From Ruminiclostridium sp. (GTDB lineage: Bacteria; Bacillota_A; Clostridia; Oscillospirales; Ruminococcaceae): a DNA stretch of 7,743 bases. Within the stretch, counting starts at the first letter, position 1; every line of letters begins with the position of its first letter. The stretch covers positions 1 to 7,743 of the forward strand of contig JAFZOA010000611.1 of assembly GCA_017550775.1 (NCBI GenBank). Reading direction: 5' to 3'. The position numbers were made by a program, and so were the translations under genes. Of the stretch, positions 1 through 7,445 are shown piece after piece. A model generated the notes under the pieces. That model worked only from the letters and a program-made list of their open reading frames with translations. It had not been told where the DNA came from and ran no database searches.

Positions 1-1881
1 AACAACTATGAGGACTATATGCTCGCGTCCGTGCTCAACGACCTTGTCGCGGAGATAAGACCGTTCAAGCCAAAAAACATCGAGCTCATCATAGATATCG
101 ACCCCGCTATCCCTTCGGTCATGAACACCGATATCAGCAAGCTTCGCAAAATACTCCGCCACCTCATCATCAACGGCCTCAAATACACGCATGAAGGCGG
201 CGTTTATGTGAGGATCTCCTCGGAGAAGGAGCCCTACGGCGTGAACCTTTTCATCGAGGTCACCGATACCGGTATCGGCATGACGGAGGAGGAGACCGAA
301 CGTATCTCAGAGCGCTTCTATCAGGCAGACTCCGGGCGTTCGCGCAAGGGCGGCGGTCTCGGACTCGGTATGTCCATAGTATCGGGATTTGTAGCCTCGC
401 TCGGCGGATTTATCACCATAAAGAGCCGCCCGGGAGCCGGCACTACGGTCACTGTAAGCTTACCGCAGGACGTTATCGACCCCGCAGGCTGTATGTCGGT
501 CGTTGACCCGAACAAGCTTTGCCTCGGCGCGTTTCTCCACTTCGACAAGTTCCATGACCCCAATGTGCGTGAATACTACAACAACATGGTGCGCAACATA
601 GTCAACGGACTTGGCGTGCAGATGCACAGAGTTGACAATATCGGAAACCTTGAAAAGCTGCTCGATTCCGTAAAGCTTACCCACCTCTTCGTGGGCGAGG
701 ACGAGTATTTAGCGTCCTCCGAACAGCTCGAAAAGCTCACCTCCGAGATGACAGTGGTCGTAGTCGCAAACGAAGACATCGTGCTCCCGCCGGGCGCAAG
801 GGCAAAGATCATGAGCAAGCCCTTCTACTGCTTCCCTGTTACAACTGTTCTCAACGCGGGCTTTGAACAGCCCTCCGAAGCGGAGCGCGGCAATATGTAC
901 TGCCGCGGCGTAACGGCGCTCGTGGTAGATGACGAACCCATGAACCTCACAGTTGCCAAGAACATCTTCAAGCGCTACGGCATGATTGTTTCCACGGCCA
1001 TGTCCGGTCAGGAATCCATTGATATGTGCCGGGAGAGAGACTTCGACATAGTGTTCATGGATCACATGATGCCCGGTATGGACGGCGTTACGGCAATGAA
1101 GCATCTCCGTGCCGACAAAGCAAAGGAGCACAGGGGCATAACCATAGTCGCCCTTACAGCAAATGCGGTAAGCACGGCGAAGGAGATGTTCCTTTCCGAG
1201 GGCTTCGACGGCTTTGTGAGCAAGCCGATCGAGCTGGTAGAGCTCGAAAGAGTCATGAAGCGTGTTCTGCCTTCATCGGTAATAACCTACGGCGATGACG
1301 AAAACGAGAAAAAGGCTGCGGCTCCGGAAGCCGCTCCGCAGAACATAACACCTTCCGCAGAACATCCCTCTGCCACGGTCGCATCCAATGATGACACTTC
1401 GGATAAGACCGAGAAGAAGCCGGTCGATGTGGTATTTGACATTCCCGCCGGAGAAGGGCTTGCCAGCGGCAGTACAGCCGAAAATCCGGACGACGTTTAC
1501 GGAGCTCTTAAGGCGCTCGGCATCGACACGGATATGGGACTTGACTACTGCCTGTCCGACGGCGAGTTTTACAAGTCTCTGCTTATGCAGTTCGCGGACG
1601 AATCCGACGAGAAGCGCGGGAAGATGATAAAATGCTTTGAGGAGAAGGATTATGAGAACTACAAGATCCTTGTCCACGCGCTTAAAAGCACCTCAAAGAT
1701 GATCGGCGACATCGAGTTATCCGAGAAAGCGAAAGCCCTCGAATACGCCGCGAAGGAGAACCGTCCGGAATATATCATCGAGAATCACGAAAGTGTAATG
1801 AACGAATACAGGATGCTTACCGACGGCATTTACCGCGCATACGGCATAACACACGGCAGCGGATCAGGGGAGGTGATGTGA
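1..1881 (+). CDS. Hybrid sensor histidine kinase with pseudo-receiver, receiver and HPt domains (5' end outside window)
   Basis: The reading frame is open from base 1, and the ATG at 19 lies inside kinase-domain sequence with no well-spaced ribosome binding site, so the true start lies upstream. Counting that Met as residue 1, the HATPase domain spans about 1-150: N-box Asn52 (NGLKYT), G1 DTGIGM at 83-88 and G2 GGGLGLG at 111-117. Residues about 155-288 look like a second Rossmann-type receiver with no acidic phosphoacceptor (LFVGEDEY where LxxMDxxMP is expected). A canonical receiver follows at 299-418, with acidic pair Asp304-Asp305, phosphoacceptor Asp348 (MDHMMPGMDG), ALTANA and the SKP lysine. 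An Ala/Pro/Glu-rich linker (about 425-485) leads to a C-terminal HPt domain with His553 in the HALKSTSKMIGD motif. The HisKA part is not in the window. By family knowledge this layout supports a His-Asp-His phosphorelay; the target is not visible. The stop is one base before the next gene, so the two are co-translated. Confidence 0.93.
   Translation, partial: NNYEDYMLASVLNDLVAEIRPFKPKNIELIIDIDPAIPSVMNTDISKLRKILRHLIINGLKYTHEGGVYVRISSEKEPYGVNLFIEVTDTGIGMTEEETERISERFYQADSGRSRKGGGLGLGMSIVSGFVASLGGFITIKSRPGAGTTVTVSLPQDVIDPAGCMSVVDPNKLCLGAFLHFDKFHDPNVREYYNNMVRNIVNGLGVQMHRVDNIGNLEKLLDSVKLTHLFVGEDEYLASSEQLEKLTSEMTVVVVANEDIVLPPGARAKIMSKPFYCFPVTTVLNAGFEQPSEAERGNMYCRGVTALVVDDEPMNLTVAKNIFKRYGMIVSTAMSGQESIDMCRERDFDIVFMDHMMPGMDGVTAMKHLRADKAKEHRGITIVALTANAVSTAKEMFLSEGFDGFVSKPIELVELERVMKRVLPSSVITYGDDENEKKAAAPEAAPQNITPSAEHPSATVASNDDTSDKTEKKPVDVVFDIPAGEGLASGSTAENPDDVYGALKALGIDTDMGLDYCLSDGEFYKSLLMQFADESDEKRGKMIKCFEEKDYENYKILVHALKSTSKMIGDIELSEKAKALEYAAKENRPEYIIENHESVMNEYRMLTDGIYRAYGITHGSGSGEVM
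1866..1875 (+). promoter_or_regulatory. Ribosome binding site of the six-TM kinase gene, inside the end of the upstream gene
   Basis: AGGGGAGGTG sits inside the last codons of the upstream gene, 7 bases before the ATG at 1883, and fixes that start. The TGA of the upstream gene (1879-1881) lies between this site and the ATG, an arrangement typical of translational coupling. Confidence 0.85.
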
Positions 1882-1882
1882 A

Positions 1883-4570
1883 ATGACCCCCAAAAAACTC
1901 AGGGATTTCATATTTGACAACGATCGTGACCTTCACGAGCGTCTGTTCGTCCTGCTTATGCTGGTAACTATCATAGCATGGTGCATAACCCTTGTTGAGC
2001 TGATATTCACCGGCGCTACGATCGGAGACATGATCGCACTTATTGTCGGAATAATTATGTTCTCCGCCGCGACGATGCTGTCCGTGCGGTTCAACCGTGT
2101 ATCCGCCGGCGCTGTCGTCATATCCGCCGGTATGAGCTTCCTTTACCTGCCGATGACGTTTTTCTTCGGCGGCGGCATCTTCGGCGACGCGCCCCTGTGG
2201 TATCTCTTCGGCATCTTCTTCATCAATATGTGTCTTACCGGAAAGCCGAAGATCGTTTTCCTGATAGCAAACGGCGTTCTCGCGGCGGGCTTCTGGTACA
2301 TATCCTACGCATTCCCGGAAATGATAGTCCAGAACAACAATGCCATGGCTCACATCTTCTCGTTCATAGCACTTGTGCTGATAAGCATTTCCGTAAGCAT
2401 AACGCTCACCTTCCGCACCTACCTCTACAACCGCGAGGTCAAGCGCTCGGAGGATCAGAAGCGTGAGATAGAGAAGCTCAACGAGGCGCAGAACCGTTTC
2501 TTCTCCAGCATGAGCCACGAGATCAGGACCCCGATAAACACAATTATCGGACTGAACGAGATGATACTTCGCGAGAACATCTCCGACGAAGTAGCCGAGG
2601 ACGCGGCGAATATCCAGGCGGCGAGCAATATGCTGCTCCACCTCATCAACGACATACTCGATATGTCCAAGCTCGCTTCGGGACAGATGGAGCTCACCCC
2701 GGTGACATATCACCCCGGCGATATGCTGTCGGAGATCGTGGGTATGCTCTGGATAAGAGCCAAATCCAAGAACCTTGAGTTTCACGTCAGCATCGCGCCC
2801 GACATTCCGGCTGAGCTTGTCGGGGACGAGATGAGAATAAAGCAGATACTTATAAACGTCCTGAACAACGCGATAAAGTACACAAAGGAGGGTTCGGTCT
2901 CTCTTTCCATTCAGAGCGGCGGTATAAAGGACGGCGCCATGAATGTCATCTATACCGTGAGCGATACCGGCATAGGCATAAAAAAGGAGAACATACCGTT
3001 CCTGTTCACGGCGTTCAGACGTGTTGACGAGGAGAAGAACCGCCACATCGAGGGTACCGGTCTCGGACTCTCGATAGTAAAGCAGTTCGTTGACCTCATG
3101 AACGGACGTATCACCGTAAACAGCGTATATACCAAGGGCTCGACATTCGTTATCGAGATCCCCCAGAAGATCTCCGGCAATCAGCTTATCGGCGAGGTCG
3201 ATCTCAGCAGCAAGACTACCGTGAACAGACAAAGGTCGCGCGGCGCAAGATTCACCGCTCCCGAAGCAAGGATACTTGTTGTTGACGACAACGCCTCCAA
3301 CCTGCTTGTGGTATCCAAGCTTCTTCGTGAGACCGGTATAAAGACCGACACGGTCACAAGCGGCTCGGAAGCTCTGAAGAAAACTCTCAACAATTACTAC
3401 CACATCATACTTATGGATCATCTCATGCCCGAAATGGACGGCATAGAATGTTTCAGAGCTATACGGACCCAGACCGGCGGCCAGTGCAAGGAATCAAAGA
3501 TAGTAGCGCTTACCGCGAACGCCGGAGCCGAAAGCCGGCTGCTGTATGAGAAGGTTGGCTTCGACGGCTATCTTATCAAGCCCGTCACCGGCATTGAGCT
3601 TGAAAGAGAGATATACAGGCTGCTCCCGAGCAATCTCACCTACGTCTCCGGCGAGAGCGATGATATCCTGCGTGAGACGATCTCGTGGATGAATACAAAA
3701 CAGCGCAAGAAAGCGGTAGCTATCACTACCGAGAGCGTCGCCGATCTCCCACAGGAGCTTATCGACAAGTACGGCATAGCTGTGCTCCCGCACCTCGTCT
3801 GCACCGCTGAGGGCAACTTCAAGGACGGCATCGAGATCGAGACAAAGGGTCTTCTGAACTATATGCAGGACATCTCGCGCAAGGTAACGACCCGTGCTCC
3901 CGATGTAAGGACAGTGGAGAACTTCTTCGCAAAGCAGCTTTCCGGCGCAAACAACATTATCCATATATCAATTTCCGGCAAGCTCACGAACAGCGGCTGT
4001 CTGGTAGCAAATGAAGCAGCGAGAGCGTTCGACAACGTTACGGTCATAGATACTGGTCATCTTTCGAGCGGTCAGGGTCTCGTCGTGCTTGAAGCCTGCC
4101 GTCTTGCGGCGGAGGGCAGAAGTCCGGAGGAGATAGTTTCGCGCATCGAAGCCTACAAGACGAAGGTACATACAAGCTTCATAGTGGATAATCTCGACTT
4201 TCTCGCAAGAGCGGAGCAGGTAAGCGACCGCCTCGCGAACATTACGAAATCGGTAATGGCAAGACCCGTACTTATGCTGAAAAAGGGTAAAATGGGTGTC
4301 AGGAAGATATACTTCGGCGCAAGAGAAAATGCGTGGAAGAACTATATCCGCTCAGTCCTCAACAACCCGTCCGGCGTTGACAACAGGATCCTGTTCGTAA
4401 CCTACGTCGGGCTCACGCAGAGAGAGAAAGAATGGATACGCGAGCAGATCGTGAGCATCGCGGACTTCGACGAGATATACTTCCAGAAGGCTTCACCGGT
4501 AATCGCGGTGAACTGCGGCGTCGGGACATTCGGTCTTCTTATCTGCGACAAAACCGGCTCTAAAACATAA
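1883..4570 (+). CDS. Six-TM hybrid histidine kinase fused to a C-terminal DegV (EDD-fold lipid-binding) domain
   Basis: The 895-residue protein has six predicted membrane helices (about 22-43, 46-68, 74-96, 104-119, 124-144, 156-178) with very short loops, so no large extracytoplasmic sensor. A short charged, coiled-coil-like segment leads to HisKA with His212 (MSHEIRTPINTIIG). The HATPase has N-box Asn329, G1 DTGIGI at 361-366 and G2 GTGLGL at 391-396. The receiver spans 463-583, with Asp468-Asp469, phosphoacceptor Asp512 (MDHLMPEMDG) and LIKP. After a roughly 25-residue linker, residues about 609-890 form a full-length DegV domain: TTESVADLP near 615-623, TTRAP 669-673, ISGKLTNSG 697-705, VIDTGHLSSGQG, and the C-terminal VIAVNCGVGTFG motif. 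DegV/FakB proteins bind fatty acids for the kinase FakA. Here the GGRIS Arg position is Gln779 and the THTGPG His is Asn877. An in-frame Met603 precedes DegV, but no ribosome binding site supports a separate start. No HPt is present; the upstream gene supplies one. Domain calls are firm; lipid sensing is inference. Confidence 0.93.
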   Translation: MTPKKLRDFIFDNDRDLHERLFVLLMLVTIIAWCITLVELIFTGATIGDMIALIVGIIMFSAATMLSVRFNRVSAGAVVISAGMSFLYLPMTFFFGGGIFGDAPLWYLFGIFFINMCLTGKPKIVFLIANGVLAAGFWYISYAFPEMIVQNNNAMAHIFSFIALVLISISVSITLTFRTYLYNREVKRSEDQKREIEKLNEAQNRFFSSMSHEIRTPINTIIGLNEMILRENISDEVAEDAANIQAASNMLLHLINDILDMSKLASGQMELTPVTYHPGDMLSEIVGMLWIRAKSKNLEFHVSIAPDIPAELVGDEMRIKQILINVLNNAIKYTKEGSVSLSIQSGGIKDGAMNVIYTVSDTGIGIKKENIPFLFTAFRRVDEEKNRHIEGTGLGLSIVKQFVDLMNGRITVNSVYTKGSTFVIEIPQKISGNQLIGEVDLSSKTTVNRQRSRGARFTAPEARILVVDDNASNLLVVSKLLRETGIKTDTVTSGSEALKKTLNNYYHIILMDHLMPEMDGIECFRAIRTQTGGQCKESKIVALTANAGAESRLLYEKVGFDGYLIKPVTGIELEREIYRLLPSNLTYVSGESDDILRETISWMNTKQRKKAVAITTESVADLPQELIDKYGIAVLPHLVCTAEGNFKDGIEIETKGLLNYMQDISRKVTTRAPDVRTVENFFAKQLSGANNIIHISISGKLTNSGCLVANEAARAFDNVTVIDTGHLSSGQGLVVLEACRLAAEGRSPEEIVSRIEAYKTKVHTSFIVDNLDFLARAEQVSDRLANITKSVMARPVLMLKKGKMGVRKIYFGARENAWKNYIRSVLNNPSGVDNRILFVTYVGLTQREKEWIREQIVSIADFDEIYFQKASPVIAVNCGVGTFGLLICDKTGSKT

Positions 4571-4603: not shown

Positions 4604-4722
4604 TAGTTTACAGGTTACAGGTTACAGTTTACAGGTTTGGTGCGCGCTGCGCGCGGATCTGAACATATCGGCGCAGTCGATGCAAAAACTATGCACTGTT
4701 AACTGTAAACTAAAAAACTGTA
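4604..4722. repeat. TTTACAG/GTTACAG tandem repeat with a distant inverted copy
   Basis: Four consecutive 7-8 base units (GTTTACAG, GTTACAG, GTTACAG, TTTACAG) run from 4606 to 4634. The segment at 4696-4712 is the inverted complement of 4604-4620 with 15 of 17 positions matching, and a further ACTGTAG follows at 4717-4722. Between them lies a GCGCGC-T-GCGCGC block (4642-4654). The arrangement suggests a degenerate dispersed intergenic repeat or a small palindromic element. No open transposase is present. Confidence 0.55.
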
Positions 4723-4739
4723 GTGACACAGCTAAATGC

Positions 4740-4774
4740 AAAAAGGACTGCGCACCCAAAGAGGTGCGCAGTCC
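4740..4774 (-). terminator. Rho-independent terminator of the acidic-protein gene
   Basis: A perfect 12-bp stem (GGACTGCGCACC at 4745-4756 paired with 4763-4774) closes a 6-base loop. Read on the minus strand it is followed at once by five Ts (complement of 4740-4744). It lies 22 bases after the stop codon of the minus-strand gene. On the plus strand the hairpin has no T-run, so it is at best a weak barrier for transcription from the kinase operon. Confidence 0.88.
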
Positions 4775-4796: not shown

Positions 4797-5246
4797 TTAT
4801 ATAGCGTCTTCGAGCTCCGAGAGCATAAGCATATCGTCGTCCTCGGGGATAAAGTCCTCGGAGAAAATACCCGGGTCAAGGAAAAGCCCGTTGTCCGACG
4901 GTACATTGTTCTGAGCCGCCGCGATATCGGTCATCTCGTCAAGCTCCGCTATCTCGTCAAAGCTTATGGCGGAGTCGAGATCCTCCATTTCACCGAACTC
5001 ATCGAAGACCGATGCTTCTTTTATCTGCGACATTGTTCCGAGCATTTCGGCAGCAGAACCTGCGGAAAACCCGCTTACAGCGAACACGCCGTTATCTGCG
5101 CCTGCCGGCTCACCATTCTCTTCCGACGCTGTACCGCGAAGCACTTCGCCGAAGTTGAGCGGATCCTTTGCTCTCCCGGTCTGTGTGCCATACACAGCGG
5201 TGTTAAGGTCGAATGCCGCGCCGACATCTCTCATTGAATATCCCAT
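4797..5246 (-). CDS. Very acidic 149-residue protein of unknown function
   Basis: I do not recognise the family. The start is supported by AAAGGAG (complement of 5253-5259) six bases before the ATG, a near-consensus promoter upstream and a strong terminator downstream. The protein has 33 Asp/Glu against only 5 Arg/Lys, and contains no Cys, Trp or His. The N-terminal third (1-75) is small-residue rich and only mildly acidic. The rest alternates acidic and hydrophobic residues in loosely repeated blocks (FDEFGEMEDLD at 81-91, FDEIAELDEMTD at 96-107, FSEDFIPEDDD at 128-138) and ends LSELEDAI. There is no signal peptide or membrane segment. It could be a disordered cytoplasmic partner protein, an anti-repressor-like mimic of nucleic acid, or a regulator of the neighbouring genes; none of these is shown. 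An overlapping plus-strand frame is judged to be a shadow. Confidence 0.82.
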   Translation of the reverse strand: MGYSMRDVGAAFDLNTAVYGTQTGRAKDPLNFGEVLRGTASEENGEPAGADNGVFAVSGFSAGSAAEMLGTMSQIKEASVFDEFGEMEDLDSAISFDEIAELDEMTDIAAAQNNVPSDNGLFLDPGIFSEDFIPEDDDMLMLSELEDAI

Positions 5247-7052: not shown

Positions 7053-7445
7053 ATGGATAAGATAATGACCATAAACGTAAGAACACTTCCGCCGGACACG
7101 GTAGAGGGACACACCGGGAAAGTCCTTATGATACCGTTCACGGCATCTGCGCAAGGAGAGTTCTTCTGCGGCGAAACGAAAGGCTGTTGTGTTGACACCC
7201 AGTACATCACACCCGACGGACAGTTTTCGCTCTCGGCACGTTACATTCTCGAAGGAACGGACAAAGACGGAAATAAGTGCCGCATATTCATAGAGAACAA
7301 CGGCACATCGCTCGAAAACTGTAAACCGAGAATAATCACCGACTCCCCCGCTCTCGCGTTTCTGGAGAAGTGCGAGCTCAGCGCGAAAGTCGAAAGTACC
7401 GGAGGAACAGTAAAGATCATAGTATACGCGGAACAGACACGATAA
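7053..7445 (+). CDS. DUF3237-like (UPF0311) small beta-barrel protein
   Basis: The start is supported by GGGAGA at 7041-7046. The 130-residue length and pattern fit the DUF3237 family: an N-terminal strand (IMTINVRTLPP), a segment on the family's GGTFxGPxLxGEVLPGGADW theme (here IPFTASAQGEFFCGETKGCCVDTQYI), then TPDGQFSLSARYILEGTDKDG matching the family's RPDGxxxLDARYxLxTDDG, and IFIENNGTSL matching its YVRNRG. It ends in two strands (CELSAKVES, VKIIVYAEQ). Four of its cysteines (C39, C45 and C46 early, C75 mid-protein by eye) are notable for a small cytosolic protein. The family has no settled function. It lies 24 bases after the duplicated-HTH gene and before a strong terminator, so it is probably the last gene of that operon. 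Assignment is from motif memory and could be a related barrel family. Confidence 0.75.
   Translation: MDKIMTINVRTLPPDTVEGHTGKVLMIPFTASAQGEFFCGETKGCCVDTQYITPDGQFSLSARYILEGTDKDGNKCRIFIENNGTSLENCKPRIITDSPALAFLEKCELSAKVESTGGTVKIIVYAEQTR

Follow-up and report, generated by a model that had tools for sequence, protein, structure and literature searches.

What does a DegV domain do at the end of a hybrid histidine kinase? The question is raised by a Ruminiclostridium sp. contig (JAFZOA010000611.1), all 7743 bases of which make up the window analysed here, and in particular by the gene at 1883-4570 on its plus strand, an uninterrupted frame of 895 residues in which a membrane kinase and receiver are followed by a DegV domain. 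An earlier interpretation made from the letters alone (the sequence-only reading) had recognised this in-frame fusion and suggested that the DegV part carries or senses fatty acids. The analysis described below bears out the fusion, places it in a widespread family, and argues that the DegV domain has probably been recruited as a regulatory component of a phosphorelay, since key FakB residues have been lost and a second kinase and often cyclic-dinucleotide genes adjoin the fusion gene.

Pfam detects HisKA, HATPase_c, Response_reg and DegV domains in that order, each well above its own cut-off, and the presence of HisKA, HATPase_c and receiver with their catalytic residues makes the protein a hybrid kinase. 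Its parts are the following.

1883-4570, plus strand: kinase-DegV fusion, 895 residues, with its ATG one base after the stop of the partner gene
1931-2428, plus strand: membrane part at the N-terminus, from residue 17 to about 182, with about six helices (AlphaFold2)
2486-2683, plus strand: HisKA, residues 202-267, with His212 (Pfam PF00512, 7.3e-17; His in 81/81 fusions)
2822-3169, plus strand: HATPase_c, residues 314-429 (Pfam PF02518, 1.4e-27)
3272-3607, plus strand: receiver, residues 464-575, with Asp512 (Pfam PF00072, 7.8e-20; D512 in 81/81 fusions)
3608-3715, plus strand: linker, residues 576-611, with T599 and W602 (both invariant among 32 close relatives), partly helical and of low confidence at 590-600 (AlphaFold2)
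3716-4546, plus strand: DegV (EDD fold), residues 612-888, with FakB-equivalent positions T670, N703, Q779, F811 and N877 (Pfam PF02645, 4.5e-42)

The DegV match (E 4.5e-42) spans residues 612-888, close to the limits of about 609-890 drawn from the sequence, and profile positions 2-278 of 280, and NCBIfam also calls the domain (TIGR00762, 162.8 bits against a cut-off of 99.7). The two-lobed DegV/EDD fold is retained over 277 residues, as judged by Pfam and by Foldseek and VIA-align on structure, and the domain modelled alone is predicted with confidence (predicted local distance difference test score, pLDDT, 93; predicted template-modelling score, pTM, 0.91). The full-length AlphaFold2 model (mean pLDDT 78, pTM 0.50, values at which the inter-domain arrangement is not to be interpreted) has confident domains, weak linkers and six N-terminal helices, the sixth of which continues into HisKA. 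The six transmembrane segments predicted earlier thus agree with the modelled helices, the membrane character of this part being judged from sequence. The window protein has no Pfam match in its membrane part (residues 17-182); among 48 fusions scanned, DUF6057 was found in seven, MASE11 in one and 6TM_PilS in one, presumably on the membrane part.

The domain order described from this one protein recurs in many others. Among the best 120 of 7784 proteins passing E 0.001 (7999 scored, window protein included), all four domains are common to the other 119, at 56-71% identity over at least 98% of the length. A contig scan of relatives' genomes, from which the best 80 of 582 confirmed loci were taken, found the fusion in a single frame at 80/80 loci, three of them (L051, L060 and L068) cut by contig ends. 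Pfam gave the four domains in 48/48 fusions scanned (42 of the 81 and six paralogues), and the catalytic residues of kinase and receiver, reported as intact in the sequence-only reading, are kept in 81/81. In broader samples, whose figures include the centre genomes, matches were present in 33/200 genomes of the family of G004 (V9D3004), where the four best candidates per genome were scored and 48/49 rows reach the end of DegV; in 9/197 of those sampled from the G001 family, of which one has an in-frame stop; and, reaching the DegV domain, in 3/299 genomes of the phylum, with three candidates scored per genome and one match beginning only at residue 193. Two fusion relatives, G314:C15:12191-14848 and G617:C88:41882-44521, have one in-frame stop each, reflecting decay or sequence error. 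Most records carrying the fusion come from rumen and gut under the titles Lachnospiraceae, Oscillospiraceae, Ruminococcus and relatives, with Ruminococcus sp. records among the closest named relatives in the matches listed; records that by title lack a metagenome-assembled genome (MAG) label (for example V9D3004, NE2001 and AB4001) have it too.

The view that DegV proteins are normally free-standing needs qualification in these bacteria. Twelve host genomes gave 63 DegV matches, of which 37 are stand-alone and 26 sit in frames of at least 890 residues; fused DegVs are not rare there. Several kinase-DegV genes occur per host genome in, for example, G002, G003 and G004, and two lie on one contig at L010:10961-19804 and at L014:5952-14991. 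A tree built by a short search without bootstrap took in 30 stand-alone DegVs (28 of the 37 from the host genomes and two from fetched loci) and 40 fused domains (12 from paralogues and 28 from the 81 fusions). In it, a branch with a Shimodaira-Hasegawa-like approximate likelihood ratio (SH-aLRT) of 100 separates all the fused domains from the stand-alone ones. A search with a divergent fused DegV returned 31 proteins with the same kinase set, the exception being one partial protein without HisKA; no other DegV architecture was present among these 31, in a search that could not return far shorter or longer proteins. A kinase-receiver relative of 598 residues, L124:5642-7438, is 46% identical to the window protein over residues 4-594 and stops before any DegV, and the remaining open reading frames (ORFs) of that fetched stretch hold neither DegV nor HPt.

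Has the fused domain kept the properties of a FakB? Passages of a study of Staphylococcus aureus FakB1 describe a carboxylate network of Thr62, Ser95, Ser171 and His270, an Arg173 that is required for catalysis and is a proposed latch, and an Arg205 that is the key residue for FakA binding, and call both arginines completely conserved in FakB (PMC8892158). When these positions are mapped by alignment, the R173/R205/H270 triad reads R-R-H in 23/30 stand-alone DegVs, in 0/81 fusions and in 0/12 further paralogues; the window protein has Q779/F811/N877. The R205 position is Arg in 27/30 stand-alone proteins, 0/81 fusions and 1/12 paralogues (a profile alignment shifts it by one, onto the invariant Gly812, and neither placement gives an arginine). 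The H270 position is His in 23/30 stand-alone proteins and in 0/81 fusions, which have Asn in 77, another residue in three and a gap in one; the R173 position is Arg in 30/30 stand-alone proteins and lacks Arg in 57/81 fusions. The Ser95 column, beside a one-residue gap, holds Asn703 in the window protein and Ser in 24/81 fusions. An invariant Gln at the R173 position, proposed from 32 close homologues, was dropped when the wider set showed Arg in 24/81. Two histidines are typical of the fused clade, H694 (79/81 fusions against 9/30 stand-alone) and H726 (71/81 against 0/30), and suggest a changed pocket or surface.

With R-R-H in none of the fusions and Q-F-N here, the window DegV is, on its residues, not a canonical FakB, though it keeps the fold. 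It appears to descend from FakB-like carriers and lacks residues that serve them in docking with FakA and in the phosphorylation of fatty acids. Of the fatty-acid role first proposed, then, the fold stands, and going from there to a carrier or sensor is a weak step; the fused domain may bind lipids in some other way. FakA is present in 12/12 host genomes searched and stand-alone DegVs are present in 11/12, which leaves other proteins available for the Fak function.

The neighbourhood of the gene, which the sequence-only reading did not use, shows it as part of a module. Directly upstream lies a second hybrid kinase.

1-1881, plus strand: partner hybrid histidine kinase, truncated at its 5' end where the contig begins (Pfam HATPase_c, 1.3e-25; Response_reg, 4.6e-24; Hpt, 4.6e-4)
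1675-1677, plus strand: codon of the partner HPt histidine, in a HALKST motif

The fragment carries the receiver Asp354 and the HPt His559 (fragment numbering), full-length relatives of it read HisKA-HATPase-REC-Hpt, and one base separates its stop from the ATG of the fusion. Such tight spacing is usual: of 76 same-strand upstream genes longer than 250 residues, that of the window among them, 72 either overlap the fusion or end no more than 35 nt before it. The overlap is 4 or 1 nt in 41, and ten longer overlaps reflect the longest-ORF start. Pfam scans (E 0.01) of 49 of 75 candidate partners found HPt and receiver in 49/49 and HisKA and HATPase in 48/49. Over 93 loci, HPt is on the neighbour in 83 (78 recognised as kinases by motif, five not), on the fusion in five, on both in none and on neither in four; one locus has no upstream sequence. 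The four with neither are L060, at a contig edge; L066, with an HPt gene downstream; and L062 and L078, where a short ORF lies between fusion and kinase. Six longer paralogues, L111-L116 (1140-1165 residues), are HisKA-HATPase-REC-DegV-HPt, and in the five of them that have upstream sequence the neighbouring kinase (677-699 residues) has no HPt; L127, which has a GGDEF gene at +2, adds a sixth case of this switch. This either-or placement of HPt is what would be expected if both kinases share one relay.

Beyond the partner, many relatives have a cyclic-dinucleotide regulator. Among 64 loci with a gene of at least 200 residues at position -2, that gene matches GGDEF or HD-GYP patterns in 44, and such matches make up 0-11% at other positions from -8 to +8. 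Of 56 pattern-matching same-strand neighbours within three genes of the fusion, receivers are present in 53, HD_5 domains in 42 and GGDEF domains in 28; one of the matches is false, the protein having nuclease domains. Counted by locus, a GGDEF/HD-GYP gene lies within three genes in 50/80 loci and in four of the 12 paralogue loci (L111, L117, L119 and L122). On the downstream side, genes of one cluster directly follow the fusion in 12 loci (including L043:13813-14616), and the scanned member encodes a solute-binding lipoprotein (SBP_bac_3) that may provide the membrane part with an extracellular input.

The best way to connect these observations is a single phosphorelay containing two membrane hybrid kinases, with cyclic-dinucleotide output and DegV as a repurposed regulatory domain, an arrangement to which we give an even chance. 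We infer that phosphate would pass from His212 to Asp512 of the fusion, then to the HPt histidine of the upstream kinase (in the longer paralogues, to the HPt that the protein itself carries), and would end on the receiver domain of a regulator of the REC-GGDEF or REC-HD-GYP type, which would set the level of a cyclic dinucleotide, presumably cyclic di-GMP (c-di-GMP). DegV would most likely be a non-catalytic regulatory domain behind the receiver that alters phosphotransfer, and its old pocket would hold a small, probably amphipathic ligand. DegV is taken as repurposed here because FakA-facing residues are lost while FakA and stand-alone DegVs exist in the hosts. What the sequences show directly is the fusion with its conservation and single branch, the lost residues, the gene pair and the either-or HPt; the flow of phosphate, the chemistry of the output and a ligand for DegV go beyond them.

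Several observations weigh against this two-kinase relay with a repurposed DegV. The window protein retains the Thr62 equivalent (Thr670), 24/81 fusions retain Arg at the R173 position, and the full triad is also missing in 7/30 stand-alone DegVs. The partner's Hpt match in the window scores 20.8 bits, below the Pfam cut-off of 24.6 (the HALKST motif is present), and three of the six HPt matches in L111-L116 fall just below it. These six long forms make up a single clade in the DegV tree, so the HPt switch represents about one evolutionary event, and only L111 among them has a GGDEF/HD-GYP gene within three genes. Thirty of the 80 loci show no such pattern in that range: the -2 gene is absent from the contig in ten and present in 20, and in one of these 20, L058, the pattern overlooked a cluster gene for a REC-HD-GYP protein. 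No output regulator is visible in the window, where the partner is cut at its 5' end, and none lies downstream of the fusion. The DegV domain may also be a pure scaffold.

A more specific version of the relay would make the fatty-acid-kinase carrier a built-in ligand sensor, in which a cytoplasmic acyl-type metabolite gates the two kinases that set c-di-GMP; this we put forward tentatively, as a proposal more apt to fail than to hold. The original idea, that DegV binds free fatty acid in a FakB-like manner and informs the kinase of membrane state or fatty-acid supply, seems rather unlikely with the carboxylate network altered (H270 replaced by Asn in 77/81 fusions, Ser at the S95 position in 24/81, R173 replaced by Gln here) and with the clade-typical H694 and H726 suggesting a different pocket or surface.

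Quite unlikely, in our estimate, is a ligand-free DegV that just docks or dimerises, positioning the receiver beside the partner HPt or the regulator. Such a role would suit the placement of DegV behind the receiver and ahead of HPt in the longer paralogues, the docking of FakB itself with FakA (7w7h, by structure title) and the linker residue W602, kept in 54/81 fusions; a whole two-lobed fold of 277 residues, however, exceeds the apparent need for a scaffold, and the relative L124 does without DegV altogether, though perhaps in another role. It is very improbable that the domain is an active FakB, a membrane-tethered carrier that passes fatty acids to FakA under kinase control: the fold and FakA are there (the latter in 12/12 host genomes searched), but the residue reported in passages of PMC8892158 as key to FakA binding (R205) is missing in 81/81 fusions, and the one reported as needed for catalysis (R173) is missing here and in 57/81. 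An assembly or gene-call artefact joining two genes, which the sequence-only reading had allowed for at the junction and which could be entertained for a protein known from one 7743-base contig alone, is practically negligible given the same fusion at 80/80 loci and in 119 other listed homologues, including records without a MAG label.

Hybrid kinases with additional C-terminal domains are a known kind, and the receivers of hybrid kinases usually precede HPt or output domains. The window protein resembles the BarA/ArcB/TorS type in its HisKA-HATPase-REC order, and BarA gives the top NCBIfam score (297.2 bits), far under the BarA equivalog cut-off of 890 bits; unlike that type (HisKA-HATPase-REC-HPt), the fusion continues from its receiver into DegV and has no HPt in its own chain, the partner protein carrying it instead. 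The proposed two-kinase relay resembles phosphorelays with REC-GGDEF or REC-HD-GYP output, in that the relatives' neighbouring regulators have these domains and receivers are present in 53/56; it differs in having two hybrid kinases, one with DegV, in one neighbourhood, with such a regulator in 50/80 loci. From FakB/DegV proteins (PF02645) the fused DegV is set apart by the fusion, by the replacement of R173, R205 and H270 and by a separate branch in the tree. Fold matches to the DegV domain include the DhaQ co-activator and the DhaK-DhaR complex, which by structure title alone would be related-fold precedents for regulatory use. These are dihydroxyacetone kinase regulators whose ligand and partner differ from the kinase-DegV case, and unlike them the window protein has the kinase fused. 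In the literature searched, which left bioRxiv preprints and most subscription papers outside, no description of a DegV-kinase fusion was found; public records already name such proteins "DegV family EDD domain-containing protein", and passages of one paper state generally that DegV is sometimes one domain within a multidomain protein (PMC12288450).

The rest of the window lies downstream of the fusion and holds three ORFs.

4797-5246, minus strand: ORF of 149 residues
5595-7028: ORF of 477 residues
7053-7445: ORF of 130 residues

None of the three has a Pfam or defence-family match; the sole NCBIfam match, for the ORF at 7053-7445, is weak, scoring 25.2 bits where the cut-off is 286. Just 3' of the fusion gene, short direct repeats of the type tttacaggttacaggttacag occur at 4605-4640. 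Because TTTTT comes directly after it in the minus-strand reading, a perfect 12-bp hairpin at 4745-4774 (-25.9 kcal/mol, z -5.9) appears to be a terminator for the ORF at 4797-5246, which lies on that strand. Searches of the window gave no match in Rfam and none to plasmids at E 1e-100.

The sequence-only reading is thus upheld in its architecture and incomplete in its context, the HPt-bearing partner upstream and the cyclic-dinucleotide regulators of many relatives having gone unused. A large ligand-binding fold from lipid metabolism occupies the place behind the receiver in a widespread family of kinases. The stand-alone DegVs of the same genomes provide a natural control, and relatives with non-MAG records make testing feasible. 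If the fused DegV domain binds a metabolite, metabolism would be tied directly to cyclic-dinucleotide control in gut bacteria.
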